40,687 nt of DNA, taken from an uncultured Geobacteraceae bacterium. GTDB lineage: Bacteria; Desulfobacterota; Desulfuromonadia; Geobacterales; CAIOGM01. Shown in pieces: positions 2,830 through 40,687 of this stretch. Numbering within the stretch: the stretch's first letter is position 1; the number at the start of each line of letters is the position of its first letter. Location: assembly GCA_903902345.1 (NCBI GenBank), contig CAIUUR010000360.1:1-40687 (forward strand), written 5' to 3'. A program made the translations under genes and the position numbers. The notes below the pieces were generated by a model. The model saw only the letters and a list, made by a program, of their open reading frames with translations. It had not been told where the DNA came from and made no database searches.

Positions 2830-4203
2830 ATGTCGCATTCATTGCCGACTGGATACGTTGCGGCCAATTTAATGAGTATAAACATGGGTTTAAAGATCGT
2901 ACACCGGTATTATCTTTTTGAGTACAAGGTGAAAAAAGCCTGGTGGGCGTTTTCCCGGTCGTCGGCGGATCGAGCCGATCTGTGGGCAAAAATACTTCTT
3001 CGCCAGTGGCCAAAGGCGCGACGCTTGTCACGTATGTACCGGATCACCTTGGCGCGATCCCCCCGGGTGGTGACGGTAATAGGTTCCTTGGGAAAAACAA
3101 CCACCGCGCGGGCAGTTTCCGCCGCTCTGGGACTCCCCGCGGAGACGATCAACGGAAACAATGAGTACACCTATGTCGCGTTAGCCCTGCTGAGAATCCT
3201 TCCGTGGCAAAGGCACGGTGTCATTGAGGTCGGCATCGGGGGAAAGGGGCAGATGGTTCAGTACAGTTCTGCCCTGCGTCCCGATATTGTCGTGGTAACA
3301 TCCATCGCCAGTGAACATATTCTCTCCCTGGGGAGTCTGGAAGAAATTCGCGAAGAAAAATCAGTAATGGTTCGCGGTCTCTCTCCGTCGGGAGTGGCGG
3401 TATTGAATGGTGACGATCCTCATGTGGTGTGGATGAAGAACTCCACCATGGCGCGGGTCATTACCTTCGGCTTCGGAGATGCCAATGATGTTCGCGCAAG
3501 TGATCTCAGGTTCGATTGGCCGTTTGGCATGCGATTCCGGATACATGCAACTGGAACGACGAGAGAGGCGCGAACGCGGTTCATAGGCCGTACCTTCGTA
3601 TATTCGACCCTGGCCGCGGTGGCTGTCGCCCTTGCGGAAGGATGTCCTCTTGATTTGATCCTTGCTCGGCTGGAGGGGCTCCAGCCTACACCTGAACGGC
3701 TTCAGCCTCTCCTGCTGGATAACGGGGCATGGTTGCTTCGTGATGATTTTAAATCAACCCTGGAAACAGTGGATGTGGCTCTTGATGTGTTGGAACAGAT
3801 TCCGGCGCGACGCAAGTTCGTGATCCTCGGAGGTGTGACTGAACTTATGGAAAACCAGGGGCCGGTCTATCGCCGTCTGGGCGCTCGGGTCGCAGGAATT
3901 GCCGATAGCGCCATTTTTTGGGGCACCAAATGTCAGCCTTACGCATCCGGAGCGGCAAGAGCCGGACTACCCCGCAGCGCCATAACGAAAGCCGACCTGA
4001 ACTTCGATAAGGCTCTGGCCGCAATTCCCCTGGATCTTGGACAGGGAGATGTGGTTCTCATAAAGGGGAAACCGGCTCAGCGTTTGGGGCGATTCGCATT
4101 GGTTCTCATGGGGCGAAAGGTAACGTGCAAAATTTCTTCTTGTACCTTGTTTGACTCCATACGCTGTGACAGGTGCGATTTACTGGAACGGGGCGAACAT
4201 TAA
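2830..4203 (+). CDS. MurF-like Mur ligase family protein
   Basis: 457 residues. Mur ligase landmarks appear in MurF order: the P-loop GSLGKTTTAR (85-94), IEVGIGGKGQM (132-142, in place of 'EMGM...GEI'), TSIASEHI (157-164), EEKSVMVRG (175-183, where the carbamylated lysine lies in MurF, here Lys177), VLNGDDPHV (191-199), DDFKSTLETVDVAL (305-318, replacing 'DAYNANP'), VILGGVTEL, and GDVVLIKGKPAQRLG near the C-terminus. Mur ligases use ATP to join an amino acid or peptide to a carboxylate through an acyl phosphate. The first 80 residues are not the usual MurF UDP-binding domain but a basic, aromatic helical segment. The extreme C-terminus is cysteine-rich. Beside a TupA-type ATP-grasp gene and a methyltransferase, a role in peptide or amino-acid decoration of a surface polymer is more likely than core peptidoglycan synthesis (inference). 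The 3' end overlaps the convergent kinase gene by 24 bases. ATG 2872 or 2884 is an alternative start. Confidence 0.8.
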   Translation: MSHSLPTGYVAANLMSINMGLKIVHRYYLFEYKVKKAWWAFSRSSADRADLWAKILLRQWPKARRLSRMYRITLARSPRVVTVIGSLGKTTTARAVSAALGLPAETINGNNEYTYVALALLRILPWQRHGVIEVGIGGKGQMVQYSSALRPDIVVVTSIASEHILSLGSLEEIREEKSVMVRGLSPSGVAVLNGDDPHVVWMKNSTMARVITFGFGDANDVRASDLRFDWPFGMRFRIHATGTTREARTRFIGRTFVYSTLAAVAVALAEGCPLDLILARLEGLQPTPERLQPLLLDNGAWLLRDDFKSTLETVDVALDVLEQIPARRKFVILGGVTELMENQGPVYRRLGARVAGIADSAIFWGTKCQPYASGAARAGLPRSAITKADLNFDKALAAIPLDLGQGDVVLIKGKPAQRLGRFALVLMGRKVTCKISSCTLFDSIRCDRCDLLERGEH

Positions 4204-7200
4204 GTTTATCTGGATGAGAGCCCCACCAAAATCCAAGTTATCAATACATCCGGTGAGTTTTTTCAAGGATTCCGGCGAGTGGCTCTCCGTCAGATACGGC
4301 TGCAGTCGAGCATAGATCTCCAGCGCTCCCAGGTCACGGTCCATCAAAAGCCGGGAGAATTCCGATACTAGTTCAGCTACTGCAGTTGGGGCGACCGCCG
4401 GGTCGGCGCCCGCTACTGACGCGGACTGTTTCTCTTCCAGGATGCTTGCCCCCGCCAAGAGCGCACAGAGGTGGGCGTCTGCCGATGGCAGATGGAGGAG
4501 TGCCGCGGCAGTATCTCCCTGTTTGAGCGCCACCTCCAGGTTGTCGGCAATGGTCGACAACGCCGTTGCACCCAGATTCCCTGCAACACCTTTCAAGGTA
4601 TGGGCCACCCTTCGGGCTCCCTCCACGTCCCCCGTGGCAACACGCTCCCGGATCAGATCTACATCGCCTTTATGCTCCCGGCCGAATACGATAATGAATT
4701 CCCGGTAGGAGTCCCAGGAAATATTCAACCGGGTCAGCGCCGATTCCACATCAAGACCGGGAAGTGTCGTTGACGCATCTTTTGACTCTGCCGCTAACCC
4801 GGTCTCGGCAGAGAATTTCTGAGGAGCGTGTTCCGATGCCGGTGGCGTAACCCAGCGGATCAGGACTTCATGCAACCGGGCAATATCAATTGGTTTGGTC
4901 AGGTGATCGTTCATACCGATACTTTGACATCGGTGGCGCTCCTCCGCAAACGCGTGTGCGGTCATGGCAATGATCGGCAACTCTTTGGCAGTGAGACGTT
5001 CCCGGATTTTTTGGGTCGCTTCGTAACCATCCATCTCCGGCATCTGAAGATCCATGAGGACCGCGGCAAACGGTTCTTTGGCCGCCAGCACTGCTGCCAC
5101 CGCCTCGACACCGTTAGCCGTTATCGTTACCGCGACACCGACCTGTGTCAGGACGGTTGTAATGATTTGCTGGTTGACGCTGTTGTCTTCAACCACCAGC
5201 AGACGCGCCCCTTTGATCCTCTGGAGGGCTTCGGTTGAGATGGTCCCCTCCGGATCTTTGCCGGTCATTCGGGACTCATCGCCAATCTCGAAGGGGATCG
5301 TCACCTGGAACGTGCTCCCCACGTCCGGCGTGCCATGGGCGCTGATTTTCCCACCCATCAGTTCGGTCAACTGCTTGCAGATGGAGAGACCCAGGCCACT
5401 CCCGCCATAGCGCCGGGTAGTGGAACTGTCCTGCTGGGTAAACGGCTCGAAGAGTCGTTGGATGTGATCAGGGGACAAGCCGATGCCGCTGTCCTTGACG
5501 ATAAAGGTAATGAGCGCCGTCTCGCTCTGTTCACCTCCTCCCCGTTCCTCCGGGGCTACCGTTACGTCAACGGCGCCGCGCTCCGTGAACTTTATTGCAT
5601 TTCCCACCAGGTTGATGAGAATCTGTTCCAGGCGGTGCGAATCACCCCTCAACCAGTCCGGTGTGTTTGGGCTTATTTCGGTCCGCAGCAGGATACCCTT
5701 GGTGGCAGCCAATCCGGTGGTCAGGTTTACTACCTGATCAAGAGTGCGGCGAAGTGAAAAGTCCGACTCTTCCAGTTCCAGTTGTCCTGATTCGACCCGT
5801 GACAGGTCGAGGATATCATCAATGAGTCGAAGGAGAGAACGGGACGACCGGTTCAGCGTGGTCAGATACTCCTCCTGTGTACCCGATAATTCCGTCTGCG
5901 CAAGTAACCGCCCCAAACCCATGATGGCGTTCATGGGAGTCCGGATCTCGTGACTCATGTTGGCCAAAAACTCACTCTTGGCCCGATTGGCCATTTCGGC
6001 CGCTTCACGGGAGTCGATCAATTCCCGCTCAACGTTGATGCGCTGCGTGATATCGCGAAAACTCCAGACCCGACCGACGATTTCGTCTCCAAGTTGTTGC
6101 GGCTGGGAATACCGTTCAAAGACCCGGCCATCCTTGAAGTAGATGGTGTCCAGGGAAATCGTCTCCGGTTGGTGATAGAGTTCCCTAACCTTTGCGGTGA
6201 ATGACTCGGGGTCGATCAGTTGCGGCAAGGCATGGGCCTGTAGCAGGGTTAAATCGTCATTGCCGATATCCTTATCAACTATCTGCCAGAGATCGAGAAA
6301 TTTTTGGTTGCAGGTCGTGATGCGACTGCTTCGGTCAACCACGAGAATACCGTCAGCAGTGGATTCAAGAGTTGCAATCTGGAGTGACAGTGATTTGAGT
6401 GTGGTCGCTTCCGCCTGTTTCCGTTCGGTGATGTCGGTTTGCGTCCCGATGACGCGCATAATCCTGCCATCTTCCCCATGGCTGACCATAACACTCCGGT
6501 CAAGGATCCACTTCCAGCTGCCGTCCCCGCAGAGGAAGCGATGTTCGTGGACGTAATCGGGGCGTACGCCATGGAGAAAAGCCTCCATGACAGCCAGCAT
6601 TCCCGACAACTCTTCCGGATGCACCCGTTCCCGACCGGTCGCCACCGTACTTTCGACACCCTCGGCGGCCATGCCGAAAATCTCCCGGCGCTGCGCCGAA
6701 TATTCAATGTTATCCGTCGGTACGTCCCAGTCCCACACGCAAACGCCGGTGCCGTCCAGGGCAATTTTCCAGTTTTCGACGCTTTCCCGCAGTTTTGTGT
6801 CCAGTAATTGCTGTCGTTGCTGCTCCAGCAGTTCGCGTAGCCTGATGTTCTCGAGGGCGACACTTGCCGCGGGAGAGAGTCCGTTACCGAAAACCAGTAC
6901 GGAGACCACGGCGTTGTTGTGGGTGACGGTACCGTTATCCGTCAGCCCCTGTTCGCCAAAGCTGAAAAAACCGGTCAATTGTCCGTCAAGCATTTCGGCC
7001 ATGAGTTCAAGTTCACGGGTCACGTTGCCGGCGCCGATGACTCTGGGGCGGAGTGCGCAATAGGCAGTGATTGCGCAGACCGGGGTGGTAATGCCTCCCC
7101 GCATGACCGCTTTGCGGATCGCATTCTGCCCGGCACAGACCATGTCGCCGGTCACTGAGCTCATGAGGATCAGGACAGTACCCGGAACCACCGGCCTAGT

Positions 7201-9363: not shown

Positions 9364-11619
9364 ATGGCTATGGTAACATCGTTTTTTGTAAGGTCCGGCA
9401 TCGGAGCCCTTTCCCTCGTTTTCATGCTGCTTCTTTTCTGCCGGTCGGCTGAGGCCACACCCCGGATTCCCGCTCTCAAATGGGAAAAAAGGTCCGACTG
9501 GGTCAGTGTCAAGAGTGATATTTCTCCCGCCGCCGTTGGCGACGGCAGGGCGGATGACACCGTAGCGCTCCAGAAGGGGCTGGACCGGATGACTCATGGG
9601 TCGGTGCTCTACCTCCCTCCCGGGACGTACCGAATCACGAAGACACTGGTTAATCGTCATGCCGCCCGCCTGTCCGGTCTCCTGCTGGTTGGTCATGGCC
9701 GTGATACCAGAATCATCTGGGACGGCAAAGCCGGCGGCCGAATGCTCCACGATGCCGGCGCCACTCACAGTCGTTATGTCGGTTTCGTCCTTGACGGCCG
9801 GGGCAAAGCCTCGGTGGGACTATACCATCAGAACGAAGCGAGCTTTTTCGAGACGGAGGTCCGGCATCAGCACCTGGCATTCCTGAATTTTACCACTGCC
9901 GGAATTCTGGCGGAGGGTGATCCGGCGACGGCGGAGGTGATCATCGAAAACTCTCTTTTCGAGAACTGTCGCCGCGGCATCGCCTGTCTCTCCTTCAACG
10001 ATTACGACTATACCATCGACGGGTGTGAATTCCGGCAGTGCGGTAGCGCCGTGGAGTGCGTTCATGGCAATGTGTATCTGCGAAACTGCCATTTTCAGGG
10101 GAGCAGCGGCGCGGATCTCATTCTCAAGCCCGAACATGGTTCATCGGTGCGGCGCTGCAGTTCGGTGGGCTCCCATTCGTTTATCTCCTTTGCCAATGCC
10201 GTTTCGCCCCTCACCATTCAGGATTGCCATGTCGAGGGATGGACCGATCCGGACGGGGCCATCTCCCTTTCCGGAGCGCCGGTCCTGCTGTTCGACTCCG
10301 TCTTCACCAAGCCGCCGGGGGGGAGGCCTCCCGTGAAACTCCATGGTCTGGGGGGAAAGCTATTCATCTCGGGGAACAGCTTCCCCACCACCGCTGGACT
10401 CCTCCAGTTCGGTCTGCCCCGGAAGGTCTATGAAATTCCAACCGGACGACGCAGTGGCGCCGTTGTCTCGGCGTCGCAGCATTTCCTGCAGGAGAAGGTG
10501 AGCGTGCCGTCGGCGATCTTCGATGTGAAACGGGATTTCGGGGCGCGGGGAGATGGCGTGTCGGACGATACTACCGCCATTCAGAGAGCCATTGATGCCG
10601 CACGAATGCATGGCAAGGGGGGGATGGCCTATCTTCCCTCCGGTGTGTACGTCGTCAGGAAGACGCTGAACATTACGGGAGGGAACTACACCGTGGGGGG
10701 GAGCGGTTTCAGGAGCGGTCTGCTCTGGAAAGGGGGAGAGGGGGGAACCATCATTTCGGTGCATGACCCGCAGAATCTGGTTCTGGAAAACATGGCCATC
10801 GGCAACCATGATACCGGTCTCTCCATGAATAACGGTATCGATATCCTGCAGAGCGGCAGCGGCAAAGGATCAGCCATGACCTATGATAACGTTACGGTTT
10901 TCGGGATGTATCAGAATAAGCCGTATCTGAAGGGGCTCTGGCTCAAGGGGTTGGGCAAGGAGTCGACGGTTCTCATTCGCCAGATGGAGGGGAATATTCA
11001 TCTGGTGGATTCGGCTCAGGCGACGATTCTGCTGAACAATACCTACGAAGGATCTTTGGTGGTGGAAGGAAAGGATAAGCGTCGGGGGGGCTTTCTGGGG
11101 GTGCTGACTCATCTGAGTACCTCCAGCGACTACGCTCTGTATGTCAGGGACAACCATTCTCTGGTCGCCAGTGATTTCTTCATCGAGCAGACGGAGCATG
11201 GTTTCCTCCTTGAAGGGAAAGGGGATGATCCTCCCGGACGGATTACCATTCAGTGCGCCAAGATGCACCTGAGACCGGCTGCAGGGGGTAATCCGGCCTG
11301 TGATATTCGGGAGTACGCCGGCGCCGTTTTTCTCGGCTCACCGCAGTTCTACGTGGAGCCGAAAAGGGTGCTCCTCCGTCACCAGGGGGGGCGCCCTCTG
11401 GATCTCTTCCTCTTCGCCGGAAGTTTTTATCAATCGGAACTGGCGGTGCAGAAGGGAGAGTCGGCGCGGGTGCGGCTGGTGGGTAATAACTCCGTCACCG
11501 GGGCACTTCTGGGGAGCCAGGTGACGGATGAGATGGGTGGGGATACCCTGCAGCGTTTGGCTGAGGCGCTGGATGATCTGCGATTGCTTGGGGAGCTGGA
11601 CCTGCGCCTCAATCATTAA
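9364..11619 (+). CDS. Exported tandem pectate-lyase-like (right-handed beta-helix) protein
   Basis: 751 residues from the preferred ATG 9364, which has GGGAGA five bases upstream; an in-frame ATG at 9328 is less likely. A signal peptide is clear: a short basic stretch, then IGALSLVFMLLLFCRSAEA. The protein then carries two copies of the pectate-lyase-3 / GH55-type N-terminal motif, each opening a beta-helix: VGDGRADDTVALQKGLDRM with LYLPPGTYRITKTL, and ARGDGVSDDTTAIQRAIDAA with AYLPSGVYVVRKTL. Between and after them are many short beta-strand and Asn/Gly turn repeats (IENSLFENC, TIDGCEFRQC, YLRNCHFQG). The family includes polysaccharide lyases, GH55 glucanases and phage-tail-spike-like proteins. 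Catalytic residues cannot be assigned, so the activity and substrate are unknown. It stands alone. Confidence 0.8.
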   Translation: MAMVTSFFVRSGIGALSLVFMLLLFCRSAEATPRIPALKWEKRSDWVSVKSDISPAAVGDGRADDTVALQKGLDRMTHGSVLYLPPGTYRITKTLVNRHAARLSGLLLVGHGRDTRIIWDGKAGGRMLHDAGATHSRYVGFVLDGRGKASVGLYHQNEASFFETEVRHQHLAFLNFTTAGILAEGDPATAEVIIENSLFENCRRGIACLSFNDYDYTIDGCEFRQCGSAVECVHGNVYLRNCHFQGSSGADLILKPEHGSSVRRCSSVGSHSFISFANAVSPLTIQDCHVEGWTDPDGAISLSGAPVLLFDSVFTKPPGGRPPVKLHGLGGKLFISGNSFPTTAGLLQFGLPRKVYEIPTGRRSGAVVSASQHFLQEKVSVPSAIFDVKRDFGARGDGVSDDTTAIQRAIDAARMHGKGGMAYLPSGVYVVRKTLNITGGNYTVGGSGFRSGLLWKGGEGGTIISVHDPQNLVLENMAIGNHDTGLSMNNGIDILQSGSGKGSAMTYDNVTVFGMYQNKPYLKGLWLKGLGKESTVLIRQMEGNIHLVDSAQATILLNNTYEGSLVVEGKDKRRGGFLGVLTHLSTSSDYALYVRDNHSLVASDFFIEQTEHGFLLEGKGDDPPGRITIQCAKMHLRPAAGGNPACDIREYAGAVFLGSPQFYVEPKRVLLRHQGGRPLDLFLFAGSFYQSELAVQKGESARVRLVGNNSVTGALLGSQVTDEMGGDTLQRLAEALDDLRLLGELDLRLNH

Positions 11620-11643
11620 TTCGGAGTATCCGCATCTTTTGAA

Positions 11644-11671
11644 TTGAGTAATTGCCTCGACTGGGTATAGT
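11644..11671 (+). promoter_or_regulatory. Putative sigma-70 promoter
   Basis: TTGAGT (11644-11649), a 16-base spacer and TATAGT (11666-11671) precede the membrane-protein gene starting at 11714, in an otherwise empty 94-base gap. Confidence 0.4.
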
Positions 11672-11713
11672 ATCCGCCACTCTCTTTTTTGATATCGTCG
11701 TACCGGGAATCCC

Positions 11714-12307
11714 ATGCCCTTTTTTTCATTGTCCGCGCAAACTCCTCACCTGCTTCTCTCTCCAACCGGCATGCTTCCCGTCCTGAAGCTCTTCCTTCTT
11801 CCCGTGGGGGGGGGAATCCCTGCCGGTGTTCTCCTTGCCCGCGCCAATGGCCTGGCTTGGCCCTTCACCGCGGGGCTCTATCTGGTCTCGGATCTGGTTC
11901 TTGCCCTTGTTTTTGAACCGATCCTCCGGTTTCTGGCGCTGTTGGCGGGAAAGGTTCCCCTTCTCACTCGTTTCAGCACGGCTCTTAAGGGGGTAACGGC
12001 GCGTAGCGTGACGCATTTCGGTGGCACCAGCGCCGGTCCCCTGGCGCTGGTCATGATTGCCTTTGGCGTGGACCCCATGACAGGACGCGCCACTGCGCTT
12101 GCCGCGGGACACGGATTCATTGCGGGATGGGCTTTCGCCATTGCCGGAGACATGCTCTATTTCGCGGTCATCGCGCTGACCACGTTGCGTCTGAACTCCT
12201 ACTTTCGAGACCCCAACAGCACGTCGCTGGTCGTCCTGGGGCTGATGTTTTTCGTCCCTCTGCTGGTACGTTATTTCCGATCCGGTCAGCTTCTTCCGAA
12301 ACAGTGA
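11714..12307 (+). CDS. Multi-spanning membrane protein of unknown function
   Basis: A 197-residue hydrophobic protein with four or five likely membrane helices: MLPVLKLFLLPVGGGIPAGV, LYLVSDLVLALVFEPILRFL, PLALVMIAFGVD, AFAIAGDMLYFAVIALTTL and LVVLGLMFFVPLLVRYF. A glycine-rich loop (PVGGGIPAG) near the start and a central THFGGTSAGPLA segment are the most distinctive parts. I do not recognise a named family; it could be a small transporter or an envelope scaffold. ATG 11714 follows GGGAA. ATG 11771, nearer the first helix, is an alternative start. No operon partner is evident. Confidence 0.65.
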   Translation: MPFFSLSAQTPHLLLSPTGMLPVLKLFLLPVGGGIPAGVLLARANGLAWPFTAGLYLVSDLVLALVFEPILRFLALLAGKVPLLTRFSTALKGVTARSVTHFGGTSAGPLALVMIAFGVDPMTGRATALAAGHGFIAGWAFAIAGDMLYFAVIALTTLRLNSYFRDPNSTSLVVLGLMFFVPLLVRYFRSGQLLPKQ

Positions 12308-12389
12308 GCCGGAGGGTAGATGGCCCGCTGCTGTCCATAAAAAGAGTTGGCGGTAATGTAGCGTACTCCGATCATTGACCGCATAATGC

Positions 12390-12507
12390 TTGACAAACTG
12401 CCCCCGGTGAGGCTACTTTTCTGTGCGTAGCAACCTCGTCATTGACACTCTGCATCGATAACCTCAAGGCTTAGGCCCCGCATTGGTGCGCGGAGTGGGC
12501 GGCCTTG
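12390..12507 (+). ncRNA. Possible structured leader or small RNA (weak)
   Basis: The 213-base gap 12308-12520 holds no gene. It contains a TTGACA (12390-12395) with a poor -10 (CTACTT at 12413). One imperfect hairpin pairs GAGGCTAC 12409-12416 with GTAG 12427-12430 plus CCTC 12434-12437. A second nested hairpin pairs CAAGGC 12465-12470 with GCCTTG 12502-12507, with GC-rich inner pairing. It does not fit the c-di-GMP, cobalamin or other riboswitch consensus I know. It may be a leader for the small membrane protein at 12521 or may mean nothing. Confidence 0.2.
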
Positions 12508-38092: not shown

Positions 38093-38167
38093 GGGCGATT
38101 AGCTCAGCGGGAGAGCACTGCCTTCACACGGCAGGGGTCGCTGGTTCGAACCCAGCATCGCCCACCA
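38093..38167 (+). tRNA. tRNA-Val (anticodon CAC)
   Basis: 75 bases including the encoded CCA. The acceptor stem GGGCGAT pairs with ATCGCCC. The D arm is GCTC/GAGC, the anticodon stem CTGCC/GGCAG has loop TTCACAC, and the T arm is CTGG-TTCGAAC-CCAG. The anticodon CAC reads GUG valine codons. It has its own promoter and terminator. Confidence 0.97.
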
Positions 38168-38295: not shown

Positions 38296-38312
38296 GTATG
38301 GAGGTTATTGAA

Positions 38313-38504
38313 GTGACTGCCACTAAGGCTGACCCTAAAAAACAGCGTACGAATAGATATAATCCAGCGGCGAGACCACCGGTGAGACTTTCCAAGGAAG
38401 ACAGGGAGTTACTGGAAAATTTGAAACCTGGCAACGATTTGATGGAGTATGTGTCTACTCTTGCAAAGCTCAAAATAATTGATGGGTCGACATGTGGCTT
38501 ATAA
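38313..38504 (+). CDS. Small antitoxin-like protein (RHH-like)
   Basis: 63 residues from GTG 38313. GGAGG at 38300-38304 is eight bases upstream, whereas ATG 38298 (68 residues) has no ribosome binding site. After a basic leader (KADPKKQRTNRY) comes RPPVRLSKEDRELLENLKP and a helix EYVSTLAKLK. The 'R..VRLSKEDRELLE' strand-helix pattern is reminiscent of ribbon-helix-helix antitoxins paired with GNAT toxins, but the match is weak. The stop overlaps the GNAT gene by 23 bases, and its promoter carries an inverted repeat, both usual in toxin-antitoxin operons. It is AT-richer than the core region. Confidence 0.55.
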   Translation: MTATKADPKKQRTNRYNPAARPPVRLSKEDRELLENLKPGNDLMEYVSTLAKLKIIDGSTCGL

Positions 38505-38955
38505 CCTTGTCACTCCTTCCAGGGCATTCCTGTCACCGCAGACATTTTTAGGGCAGTTTCAGTTCAGTAATGACCATGAACGCCAATATGTGAAATACGT
38601 GGCTAAGCTTGCGGTTAATAACAAGGTTCGCATTCATCTCCTTACGAACGATGAAAATAAGCCGGTTGCCTTTATGGCGCTTTCATTCGATAAAATAGCC
38701 ACGAGTTCATGTCTTGTCATTAACTATCTGTTTTGCTCAGTGCCGTACCGAAGATTGATTGTTGCAGAGTTGCAAATGAGGAGAATATCGCATCATCTTG
38801 TTGCCAGAGCCATACAGCTTGTACAGGAGATATTACCCTATGTTCCTGTTCACTTCTTGGCTTTACAGCCTGCACACGAAAAACTTGAACAATTTTATGC
38901 TGATCTTGGCTTCACGCGCCTGCACCATAAAGAGTGGATGTTTCTGAAGATCTAA
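38482..38955 (+). CDS. GNAT-fold acetyltransferase, possible toxin
   Basis: 157 residues from ATG 38482. The C-terminal half has the GNAT end pattern FLALQPAHEKLEQFYADLGF, then TRLHHKEWMFLKI, and a central strand VAFMALSFDKIATSS with YLFCSVPYRR. The clear Q/R-x-x-G-x-G/A acetyl-CoA loop is not obvious, so the protein is divergent. Together with the overlapping small gene upstream it has the layout of a TacAT-type toxin-antitoxin unit, in which the GNAT blocks aminoacyl-tRNA. The alternative is a stray metabolic acetyltransferase. Confidence 0.65.
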   Translation: MGRHVAYNLVTPSRAFLSPQTFLGQFQFSNDHERQYVKYVAKLAVNNKVRIHLLTNDENKPVAFMALSFDKIATSSCLVINYLFCSVPYRRLIVAELQMRRISHHLVARAIQLVQEILPYVPVHFLALQPAHEKLEQFYADLGFTRLHHKEWMFLKI

Positions 38956-39971: not shown

Positions 39972-40092
39972 GTATGGTTTGAGGTGCAGTAAGGCTTTTT
40001 TCACTTTTTATCCTTCGCCCTTCACCATTCCTTTTCAGTCTTTGAGTAGGGAAGGGATGATTGGAGTGATGACGATCAACATTAATAAGTTG

Positions 40093-40144
40093 CATAAGTT
40101 ACCAGCGTCCCTCCCGGTCATAAGTTACCAGCGTCCCTGCCGGT
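40093..40144. repeat. 26-bp tandem duplication
   Basis: CATAAGTTACCAGCGTCCCT plus CCCGGT (40093-40118) is repeated at 40119-40144 with a single C-to-G change. It lies about 100 bases upstream of the coupled gene pair at the right edge. The rest of the gap 39972-40245 shows no gene. Confidence 0.95.
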
Positions 40145-40245
40145 CAGAATAATAAAGGTGAAAACTGATGATAATTTGTGATATGTTTCTAAAAATATCC
40201 ATACCCAGAGTATGTTAGCCATACGTTGTTTCTCGAAAGTTAAAA

Positions 40246-40668
40246 ATGACCAAACGTCAATCAAATAACCCCAAGCGGCGAGTCGCACCTCCCGGCGAGC
40301 TAGATCTGCTGGAGGTCGAACGTCTTGTTGCCGAAACACGTTATGTCGGGAGTGCATTGCATAAACAATATCCCGGCAATTATGGTTTTCATCCTCCTGT
40401 TAACCCTCGCCCTCACAAATCGCTCTGCGACGACGTGAGATCGATACCACTGGAGGAAGCCCGTCGCCTCTTTGAGTCCGGGATAAGACGAGGGATGGTC
40501 AGTACCTGCAGGCAAGGAGATTTGCCGAAATATATCTGGTGCGTTGACGATAACGGTGAAGTGTATGAGGCGAAGATAGGCATTGACGGGTATCATGGCT
40601 ATCGGTTAAACGATGAAAACGAATCTGCCATGCGGAAAATAATAGTGCGGGAATGGAATGCAAGATGA
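40246..40668 (+). CDS. Conserved-looking hypothetical protein, 140 aa
   Basis: 140 residues, soluble. A basic start (MTKRQSNNPKRRVAPPGE) is followed by LHKQYPGNYGFHPPVNPRPH, VRSIPLEEARRLFESGIRRG, LPKYIWCVDDNGEVYEAKIG and YHGYRLNDEN, ending IVREWNAR. The segment 'LPKYIWCVDDNGEVYEAK' looks like a two-strand beta-hairpin, and 'EARRLFESGIRRGM' like a helix. I do not recognise a named family. The TGA overlaps the ATG of the following frame (ATGA at 40665), so the two are translationally coupled. Paired small genes like this in accessory DNA are often toxin/antitoxin or effector/immunity units, but no motif here proves it. The DNA is AT-richer than the core region. Confidence 0.7.
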   Translation: MTKRQSNNPKRRVAPPGELDLLEVERLVAETRYVGSALHKQYPGNYGFHPPVNPRPHKSLCDDVRSIPLEEARRLFESGIRRGMVSTCRQGDLPKYIWCVDDNGEVYEAKIGIDGYHGYRLNDENESAMRKIIVREWNAR

Positions 40669-40687
40669 GTGACCTGAATTTCTCTAT
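40665..40687 (+). CDS. Start of a coupled gene, truncated by the window
   Basis: ATG 40665, in an ATGA overlap with the previous stop, opens MSDLNFS before the window ends. Only the first seven complete codons are visible, so nothing can be said about function beyond the operon link. Confidence 0.45.

Follow-up and report, generated by a model that had tools for sequence, protein, structure and literature searches.

The two overlapping genes at the far end of the analysed stretch of DNA (40,687 nucleotides, referred to here as the window) are, in our judgement, best explained as a mobile two-gene toxin–antitoxin module of a toxin–immunity-like kind. The first gene, A, would encode a toxin, probably an RNase, and the second, B, an antitoxin built on an ImmA-type domain whose protease site is dead. 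We consider this reading fairly probable; both the toxicity and the RNase activity of A are properties that we infer. A module of the toxin type had been suggested in the original prediction, and this agrees with the predicted folds, the charges and the distribution of the two proteins. The features on which the argument turns are collected in Table 1.

Table 1. Positions of the module and of the repeat that borders it in the window.
Feature	Position	Strand	Basis
26-bp tandem duplication, copy 1 (dispersed repeat of the genus, outside the shared block)	40093..40118	+	
26-bp tandem duplication, copy 2 (25/26 identical)	40119..40144	+	
Block common to the window and L014 (96.3% identical): module and about 98 bp of leader of A	40148..40687	+	blastn
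Gene A (140 aa; toxin by prediction, probably of an RNase fold class)	40246..40668	+	Open frame, pairing, conserved residues, model
Gene B, start (about 7 codons), truncated where the contig stops; antitoxin by prediction, with protease-dead ImmA/IrrE domain	40665..40687	+	ATGA overlap; full length in G002/L004; fold; no HExxH

Gene A encodes a small basic protein outside known families

The ATGA overlap that had been described between the 140-residue gene and its neighbour can be read directly: the TGA of gene A (40666-40668) shares these letters with the start ATG of gene B at 40665. A chance reading frame was ruled out by the codon differences from the 99% identical copy of the same genus (four synonymous and one non-synonymous) and by the conservation of A across phyla seen in the A alignment.

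That A belongs to no known family was borne out by searches of Pfam, PADLOC and NCBIfam, which returned zero matches at E<=1; for the window protein, Pfam stayed empty even at E<=10, as did the PHROGs for the 99% identical copy (G002) at E<=0.1. None of 60 members of the A family matched a Pfam toxin family, even at E<=10. The matches that other members gave at this threshold were scattered, with no family in common, and no helix-turn-helix (HTH) family was found in the same scan of the 60 members. PDB sequence searches with the profiles of A and of its counterpart in a sister family (see below) gave weak, unrelated rows or nothing.

All 80 aligned rows (a 60-row alignment and 20 further rows, with L039 and L044 in both and L104 repeating L058) have Y33, H39, C61 and P94, and at position 117 there is His in 69 rows and Lys in nine. 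The protein is positively charged in 58 of the 60 rows.

The model of A (mean pLDDT 89.1) has helices at residues 21-30, 69-81 and 123-139 and strands at 96-100, 106-111 and 116-120. Foldseek searches found nothing at E<=0.001, either in the PDB (best E 0.61) or among viral models. The top row of VIA-align is a MafB2-CT/MafI2 entry (Z 4.5, 81 aligned) and the second a C. taiwanensis CDI entry (Z 4.1, 65 aligned), both weak; RelE, HigB2, HigBA and a Serratia CDI entry follow at Z 2.0-2.4, together with HP0892 (Z 2.5), which we take to be RelE-like. All Z values for A lie below 5, and a Z of less than 8 does not prove kinship. By our reading, toxin systems account for nine of the 13 entries listed, counted as whole entries. 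MafB2-CT is described in PMC9970974 as a ribonuclease dependent on three histidines, and the C. taiwanensis CdiA-CT serves as a toxin template in PMC9111745.

Judged from these models, A is weakly similar in structure to the MafB, CdiA-CT and RelE/HigB toxins, and it would most likely be an RNase of the CdiA-CT/MafB/RelE structural class. Candidate active-site residues are H39 and position 117 (His, sometimes Lys), together with C61, E108, Y116 and Y119, which are conserved.

Gene B carries an ImmA/IrrE fold that lacks the protease motif

The window and its contig stop at the same base (40,687), and the frame of gene B is open over the 23 nt available; a second in-frame ATG, at 40653, could also serve as its start. 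The full-length protein was obtained from a genome of the same genus (G002, locus L004), where B has 454 residues and adjoins the 99% identical copy of A; L014, from an uncultured Desulfuromonadales bin, is the same contig as L004. A search of the source assembly with B found a single further copy, a distant one on contig C23 (L005), where frames of 169 and 445 residues overlap.

The model of B (mean pLDDT 93.1) falls into two parts. Residues 273-442 align with CapP (7t5t) at Z 12.3 (rmsd 3.1, 160 aligned), and the same C-terminal domain matches PprI/IrrE at Z 8.9-9.3, while a mycobacterial transcriptional regulator matches B at Z 8.0-8.2 over a wider range. Residues 6-154 align with the CdiI protein of Burkholderia dolosa (5ffp) at Z 6.2 (rmsd 3.7, 121 aligned); the lower rows for this domain, at Z 4.6-5.5, comprise PURA, WHY2, MRP1/2 and the Enterobacter cloacae CdiI (4ntq, Z 4.8). 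Foldseek placed CapP at the top (E 1.1e-3, probability 1.00) and had 5ffp in sixth place (E 0.61). At the level of sequence, the Pfam family Peptidase_M78 matches 42 of 71 members of the B family at E<=1 (best 1e-5), two members scanned singly falling below or outside the Pfam cut-off, and the PADLOC model for RmrA matches 37 of the 71 at E<=0.01. PDB sequence searches with B gave weak, unrelated rows or nothing. The models indicate that the C-terminal domain of B has the ImmA/IrrE/CapP fold. This fold rules out an ordinary metabolic gene as the partner of A, one of the two outcomes that would have told against the original prediction; the other, a pair that does not stay together across genomes, is contradicted by the distribution given below.

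The zinc-binding motif of this fold, HExxH, is present in none of the 71 members. Its position is occupied by RxxGD in 48 of them and RxxAD in 13, and the canonical ImmA motifs HEIAH and HELGH align onto the R-x-x-G-D of B. Nine weak ImmA matches were fetched for comparison and left five frames after filtering; one of these was spurious and the other four have HExxH. Invariant in B are R342, F343, R347, R371, Q372, Q375 and R376, along with most of the AFA-E-L-P run that follows. Zinc-protease activity is not to be expected of this site, although it is strongly conserved.

B is negatively charged in 71 of 71 members, and its N-terminal domain is likewise negative in all 71. Opposite charges are frequent in toxin/immunity partners. 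Neither an HTH nor an operator was identified for the A/B pair.

A and B form a conserved, coupled and patchily distributed pair

A one-genome-per-species scan yielded at least 593 stretches with the pattern sought. At least 414 of them were confirmed to encode B relatives, and the analysis covered the best 80 of the 414. By their record titles these 80 loci come from Pseudomonadota, desulfobacteria, Verrucomicrobia, Cyanobacteria, Acidobacteria, Planctomycetes, Chloroflexi (Dehalococcoidia), Chlorobi and other phyla. The two genes are kept together: A lies directly upstream of B in 74 of these 80 loci. They overlap in 65 of the 74, with an ATGA-type offset in 36 and one of seven bases in 12, the 65 being an upper-end figure since start codons were chosen in favour of a short overlap. 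The A frame measures 110-240 residues in 65 of the 74. At L020 the contig start cuts A, and at L056 A lies within a long frame. Two loci, L046 and L047, are near-duplicates, and L104 is the same contig as L058.

In seven of the 74 loci (L017, L018, L034, L037, L067, L080 and L083) A is short or split beside a long B frame. These may be decaying toxins, for which assembly errors could also account. Six loci are without a full A. One of these, L059, still has the end of A where its contig begins; in the other five of the best 80 of 414 (L036, L049, L053, L074 and L093) B stands alone, with the B of L036 frame-broken and only about 630 bp present before B in L074. No A was found at L102, but a run of N lies upstream there, and the locus was left out of the B-alone count. 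At L053 (6213-10697) three B genes stand in tandem with no detectable A, an arrangement like that of an immunity-gene array.

Searches of larger genome sets gave a similar picture. Among 297 genomes of the source phylum, A was found in four and full-length B in the same four, with only weak C-terminal matches in four others. Among 369 gammaproteobacterial genomes there were three strong matches to A, each adjoining a full-length B. The set also gave a full-length B with an upstream run of N (L102), a fragment of B where a contig breaks off (G570) and 12 C-terminal matches that are weak. In the same set, G705 (L103) holds a weak, unconfirmed A-like match (E 0.0074 on refetch) with no B nearby; among the copies of A that were followed up, no confirmed A occurred without B. 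Five diverged copies of the pair, each with A beside B, are present in one member of the Pseudomonadales (G351; L031 and L109-L112). At L044 (7532-10015) a full-length A is followed by a first B that lacks its middle and, directly after it, a second B that runs off the contig.

Among 58 relatives searched, A occurs in two, both of the same genus, and among the matches listed the nearest relative outside the genus is from the gammaproteobacterium Contendobacter (59% identity for B and 62% for A), which points to horizontal transfer.

A sister family retains the protease site

Behind two weak matches to B lie proteins, each about 475 residues long, that are laid out like B and have an intact HEICH or HELCH motif. 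Each follows a small overlapping protein with GKC, YxA and HGYP stretches that resemble those of A, and two sister pairs on plasmids were identified besides. The loci of this two-gene family (L155, L156, L158, L159 and L162) share the gene order and the overlap of A and B. Compared with the window type by hhalign, the small partners gave a probability of 97.5 and the B proteins one of 98.8 over nearly their full length (E-values here are for single comparisons). The motif HE(I/L)CH is kept in four of four aligned sister proteins (L162 not among them), and of four sister small partners just two are basic.

The two branches meet in Lamprocystis purpurea (G357, L162), where a fragment of A and a partial B are followed in tandem by a sister pair, whose small partner is matched by the A profile at E 2.7e-4. 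Upstream of a sister-like protein on a further plasmid (L160) lies a gene of 262 residues that is matched by neither A profile. On the basis of sequence comparison, the window branch appears to be a protease-dead relative of a branch with an intact site.

Neighbouring genes and fusions

No constant third gene was found beside the pair in the 80 loci (the best of 414), and the commonest neighbour family occurs in seven of them and is not effector-like. In individual genomes additional domains are attached to B. At L016 (9330-10313) its C-terminal end is fused to a PD-(D/E)XK nuclease domain (PDDEXK_4, E 3.2e-15), and at L109 (3243-3995) to DUF7002 (E 4e-26). In L046 and its near-duplicate L047, B has a 4-nt overlap with an AAA_15/AAA_21 gene, a relative of which lies behind B in L018.

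These additions would suit a sensor-effector arrangement, with B as the central sensor or platform, A as a non-toxic processing partner or co-factor, and nuclease, DUF7002 or AAA ATPase effectors added in some genomes. CapP, the nearest solved structure to B, is itself the regulator of a defence operon, which may be counted in the same direction. Against such an arrangement stand the lack of a constant third gene, the existence of B without A, and the fact that the toxin-like charge and the hints from folding belong to A rather than to B; we regard it as unlikely.

The surroundings of the pair do not establish a defence-island setting, which the original prediction had put up for testing. Restriction-type genes lie near three of six plasmid pairs, and the other three are without them: the Massilia plasmid pair adjoins dptFGH, the pair on Agrobacterium pAt2 sits between two restriction endonuclease genes, and the pair on the Rhizobium Pop5 plasmid is near a methyltransferase and a RecB-like nuclease. 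PADLOC returned 386 model matches for 136 neighbouring ORFs and 84 for 122 control ORFs, figures that include many models per gene and are not gene counts; L047, ORFs of more than 700 residues and two ORFs that are B itself were omitted from the neighbour scan. A role in phage defence is possible for the pair.

Two Acidithiobacillus plasmids carry just a partial B, and in one of them (L013) there is also a fragment of A. B gave no match to phage records, and among viral contigs (IMG/VR) one of 39 stretches with the pattern encodes B, with A before it (L161, pair at 3459-5224). This pair adjoins frames that we take to resemble transposases and a serine recombinase, so the contig may represent a mobile element of a different kind. 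In L030, the frames that come directly behind the pair (9526-12500) presumably resemble the type III CRISPR proteins Cmr1 and Cas10/Cmr2. The same-genus pair in L004 is flanked by what appear to us to be a RelE/ParE-like pair (543-1008) and conjugation genes of the TraF and TrbI types (4949-5753).

Comparison with known systems

Among the closest known systems is RosmerTA, which likewise consists of two genes, one with an ImmA/IrrE-fold domain, and whose RmrA models match B as described above. RmrA is described in PMC10440598 as an antitoxin to varied toxins. The A/B pair differs in that A is one conserved family, that B has a CdiI-like N-terminal domain in place of an HTH, and that HExxH is absent. 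The pair would work in a similar way to RosmerTA, but it was not filed there because this motif was looked for in B and found to be missing.

As in type II toxin–antitoxin systems, A and B are two coupled, co-directional genes that are kept together. The CDI and Maf pairs (CdiA-CT/CdiI and MafB/MafI) are the source of the best structural rows for A and for the N-terminal domain of B, and in MafB2/MafI2 in particular the RNase toxin is basic and its cap acidic (PMC9970974). They differ from the present pair, in which A is free-standing without a delivery domain and precedes its partner by an overlap, and in which the partner carries an ImmA-fold domain.

The ImmA/IrrE fold itself is common to B and to CapH/CapP, IrrE/DdrO and COG2856-Xre (CapP Z 12.3, PprI Z 9.3). 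CapP is an HExxH zinc peptidase that cuts an HTH repressor, and the IrrE/DdrO and COG2856-Xre systems act in the same way (PMC2701414). B differs from all of these in lacking both HExxH and a constant repressor partner. With Peptidase_M78 it shares the fold and the sequence of the domain but not the HExxH zinc site. Among the open-licence papers listed, we found no description of the A/B pair itself, unlike RosmerTA and COG2856-Xre (PMC10440598, PMC2701414).

Another reading is a non-toxic regulatory pair, in which B would be a degenerate anti-repressor of the ImmA type that controls a mobile element together with its small partner. ImmA and IrrE cleave repressors (PMC10440598, PMC2701414), and both the plasmid pairs and the viral-contig pair next to its presumed recombinase and transposase frames would suit such a function. 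The protease site is absent from the window branch, however, no constant repressor gene accompanies the pair and A matches no HTH family, which makes this account improbable. Least probable of all is a reversal of roles, with B as toxin and A as antitoxin, since B occurs alone and even in three tandem copies, hardly tolerable for a free toxin, and since A is basic and toxin-like while B is acidic with an immunity-like domain, even though many antitoxins are small and translated first, as A is, and B bears extra effector-like domains in two loci.

Proposed mode of action

Under the preferred reading, that of a toxin–antitoxin module, A would be a small basic toxin, with RNase activity as its putative mode of attack, and B an acidic antitoxin whose translation is coupled and follows directly upon that of A. 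The CdiI-like N-terminal domain of B would probably cap A. Its ImmA/IrrE domain, in which HExxH is replaced by R-x-x-G/A-D, would probably bind or sense something, and a trigger would make this C-terminal domain let A go.

Several observations count against this reading. The structural likeness of A to toxins is weak, the histidine at position 117 is not universal and there is no Pfam toxin match; the sister small partner is basic in two of four; L044 has a full-length A with a broken first B; and B is fused in places to PDDEXK_4 or DUF7002, which a plain antitoxin need not carry.

More tentatively, and with less confidence than in the module as such, the pair might represent an unnamed, cross-phylum class of toxin–antitoxin system, whose antitoxin would share its ancestry with a live ImmA protease. 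The zinc site would have been given up for a pocket made of a strongly conserved R-x-x-G/A-D and RQxxQRAFAxE. On sensing a ligand or a factor from a phage, this pocket would set free a toxin with RNase activity, from a family that has no Pfam entry. As the sister branch retains its protease site, the two branches, found once in tandem, would offer a natural comparison of a protease with a sensor-like relative.

If the toxin–antitoxin reading is correct, a two-gene system with at least 414 relatives of B is common and yet unannotated, the A of the window being without a match in Pfam, PADLOC and NCBIfam. It would join a CDI-type immunity domain and an ImmA-type regulator in one protein, and it raises the question of how an ImmA-type antitoxin acts without its protease site while the sister family keeps that site.

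The upstream duplication and the tRNA-Val region

The original prediction drew attention to a near-perfect 26-base duplication about 100 bp upstream of A and proposed it as a regulator site of the pair. The duplication is real, with copies that are 96% identical, and goes beyond chance (none of 200 shuffled 20-kb stretches holds such a tandem pair). Its proposed function did not hold up: the block shared with the same-genus locus begins at 40148, past copy 2, and the repeat is dispersed. Extended and allowing up to three mismatches, it occurs in three places in the source genome, five in G002 and one in G001, and is absent from the other 16 of the 19 genomes searched. The 26-mers represent a repeat scattered across the genus, which at this locus lies next to the module, rather than a shared operator for the pair.

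The dispersed repeat, TTAATAAGTNGCATAAGTTNCCAGCGTCCC, is located at 40082-40144 in the window, at 261-360 in L136, on contigs C152, C2, C69, C194 and C196 of G002 and on C73 of G001. Further short repeats follow the copy on C491 (L136), and this copy itself follows the end of a frame that we take to resemble a transposase with a DnaA-like tail.

The placing of the pair after tRNA-Val was likewise correct, as a tRNA-Val (CAC) lies at 38093-38167, about 2.1 kb before A. Right after this tRNA, at 38298-38955 on the forward strand, a frame of 68 residues overlaps one of 158 residues. The longer frame has an acetyltransferase match in PHROG (E 3.2e-5), and the two presumably resemble a GNAT-type toxin–antitoxin pair.
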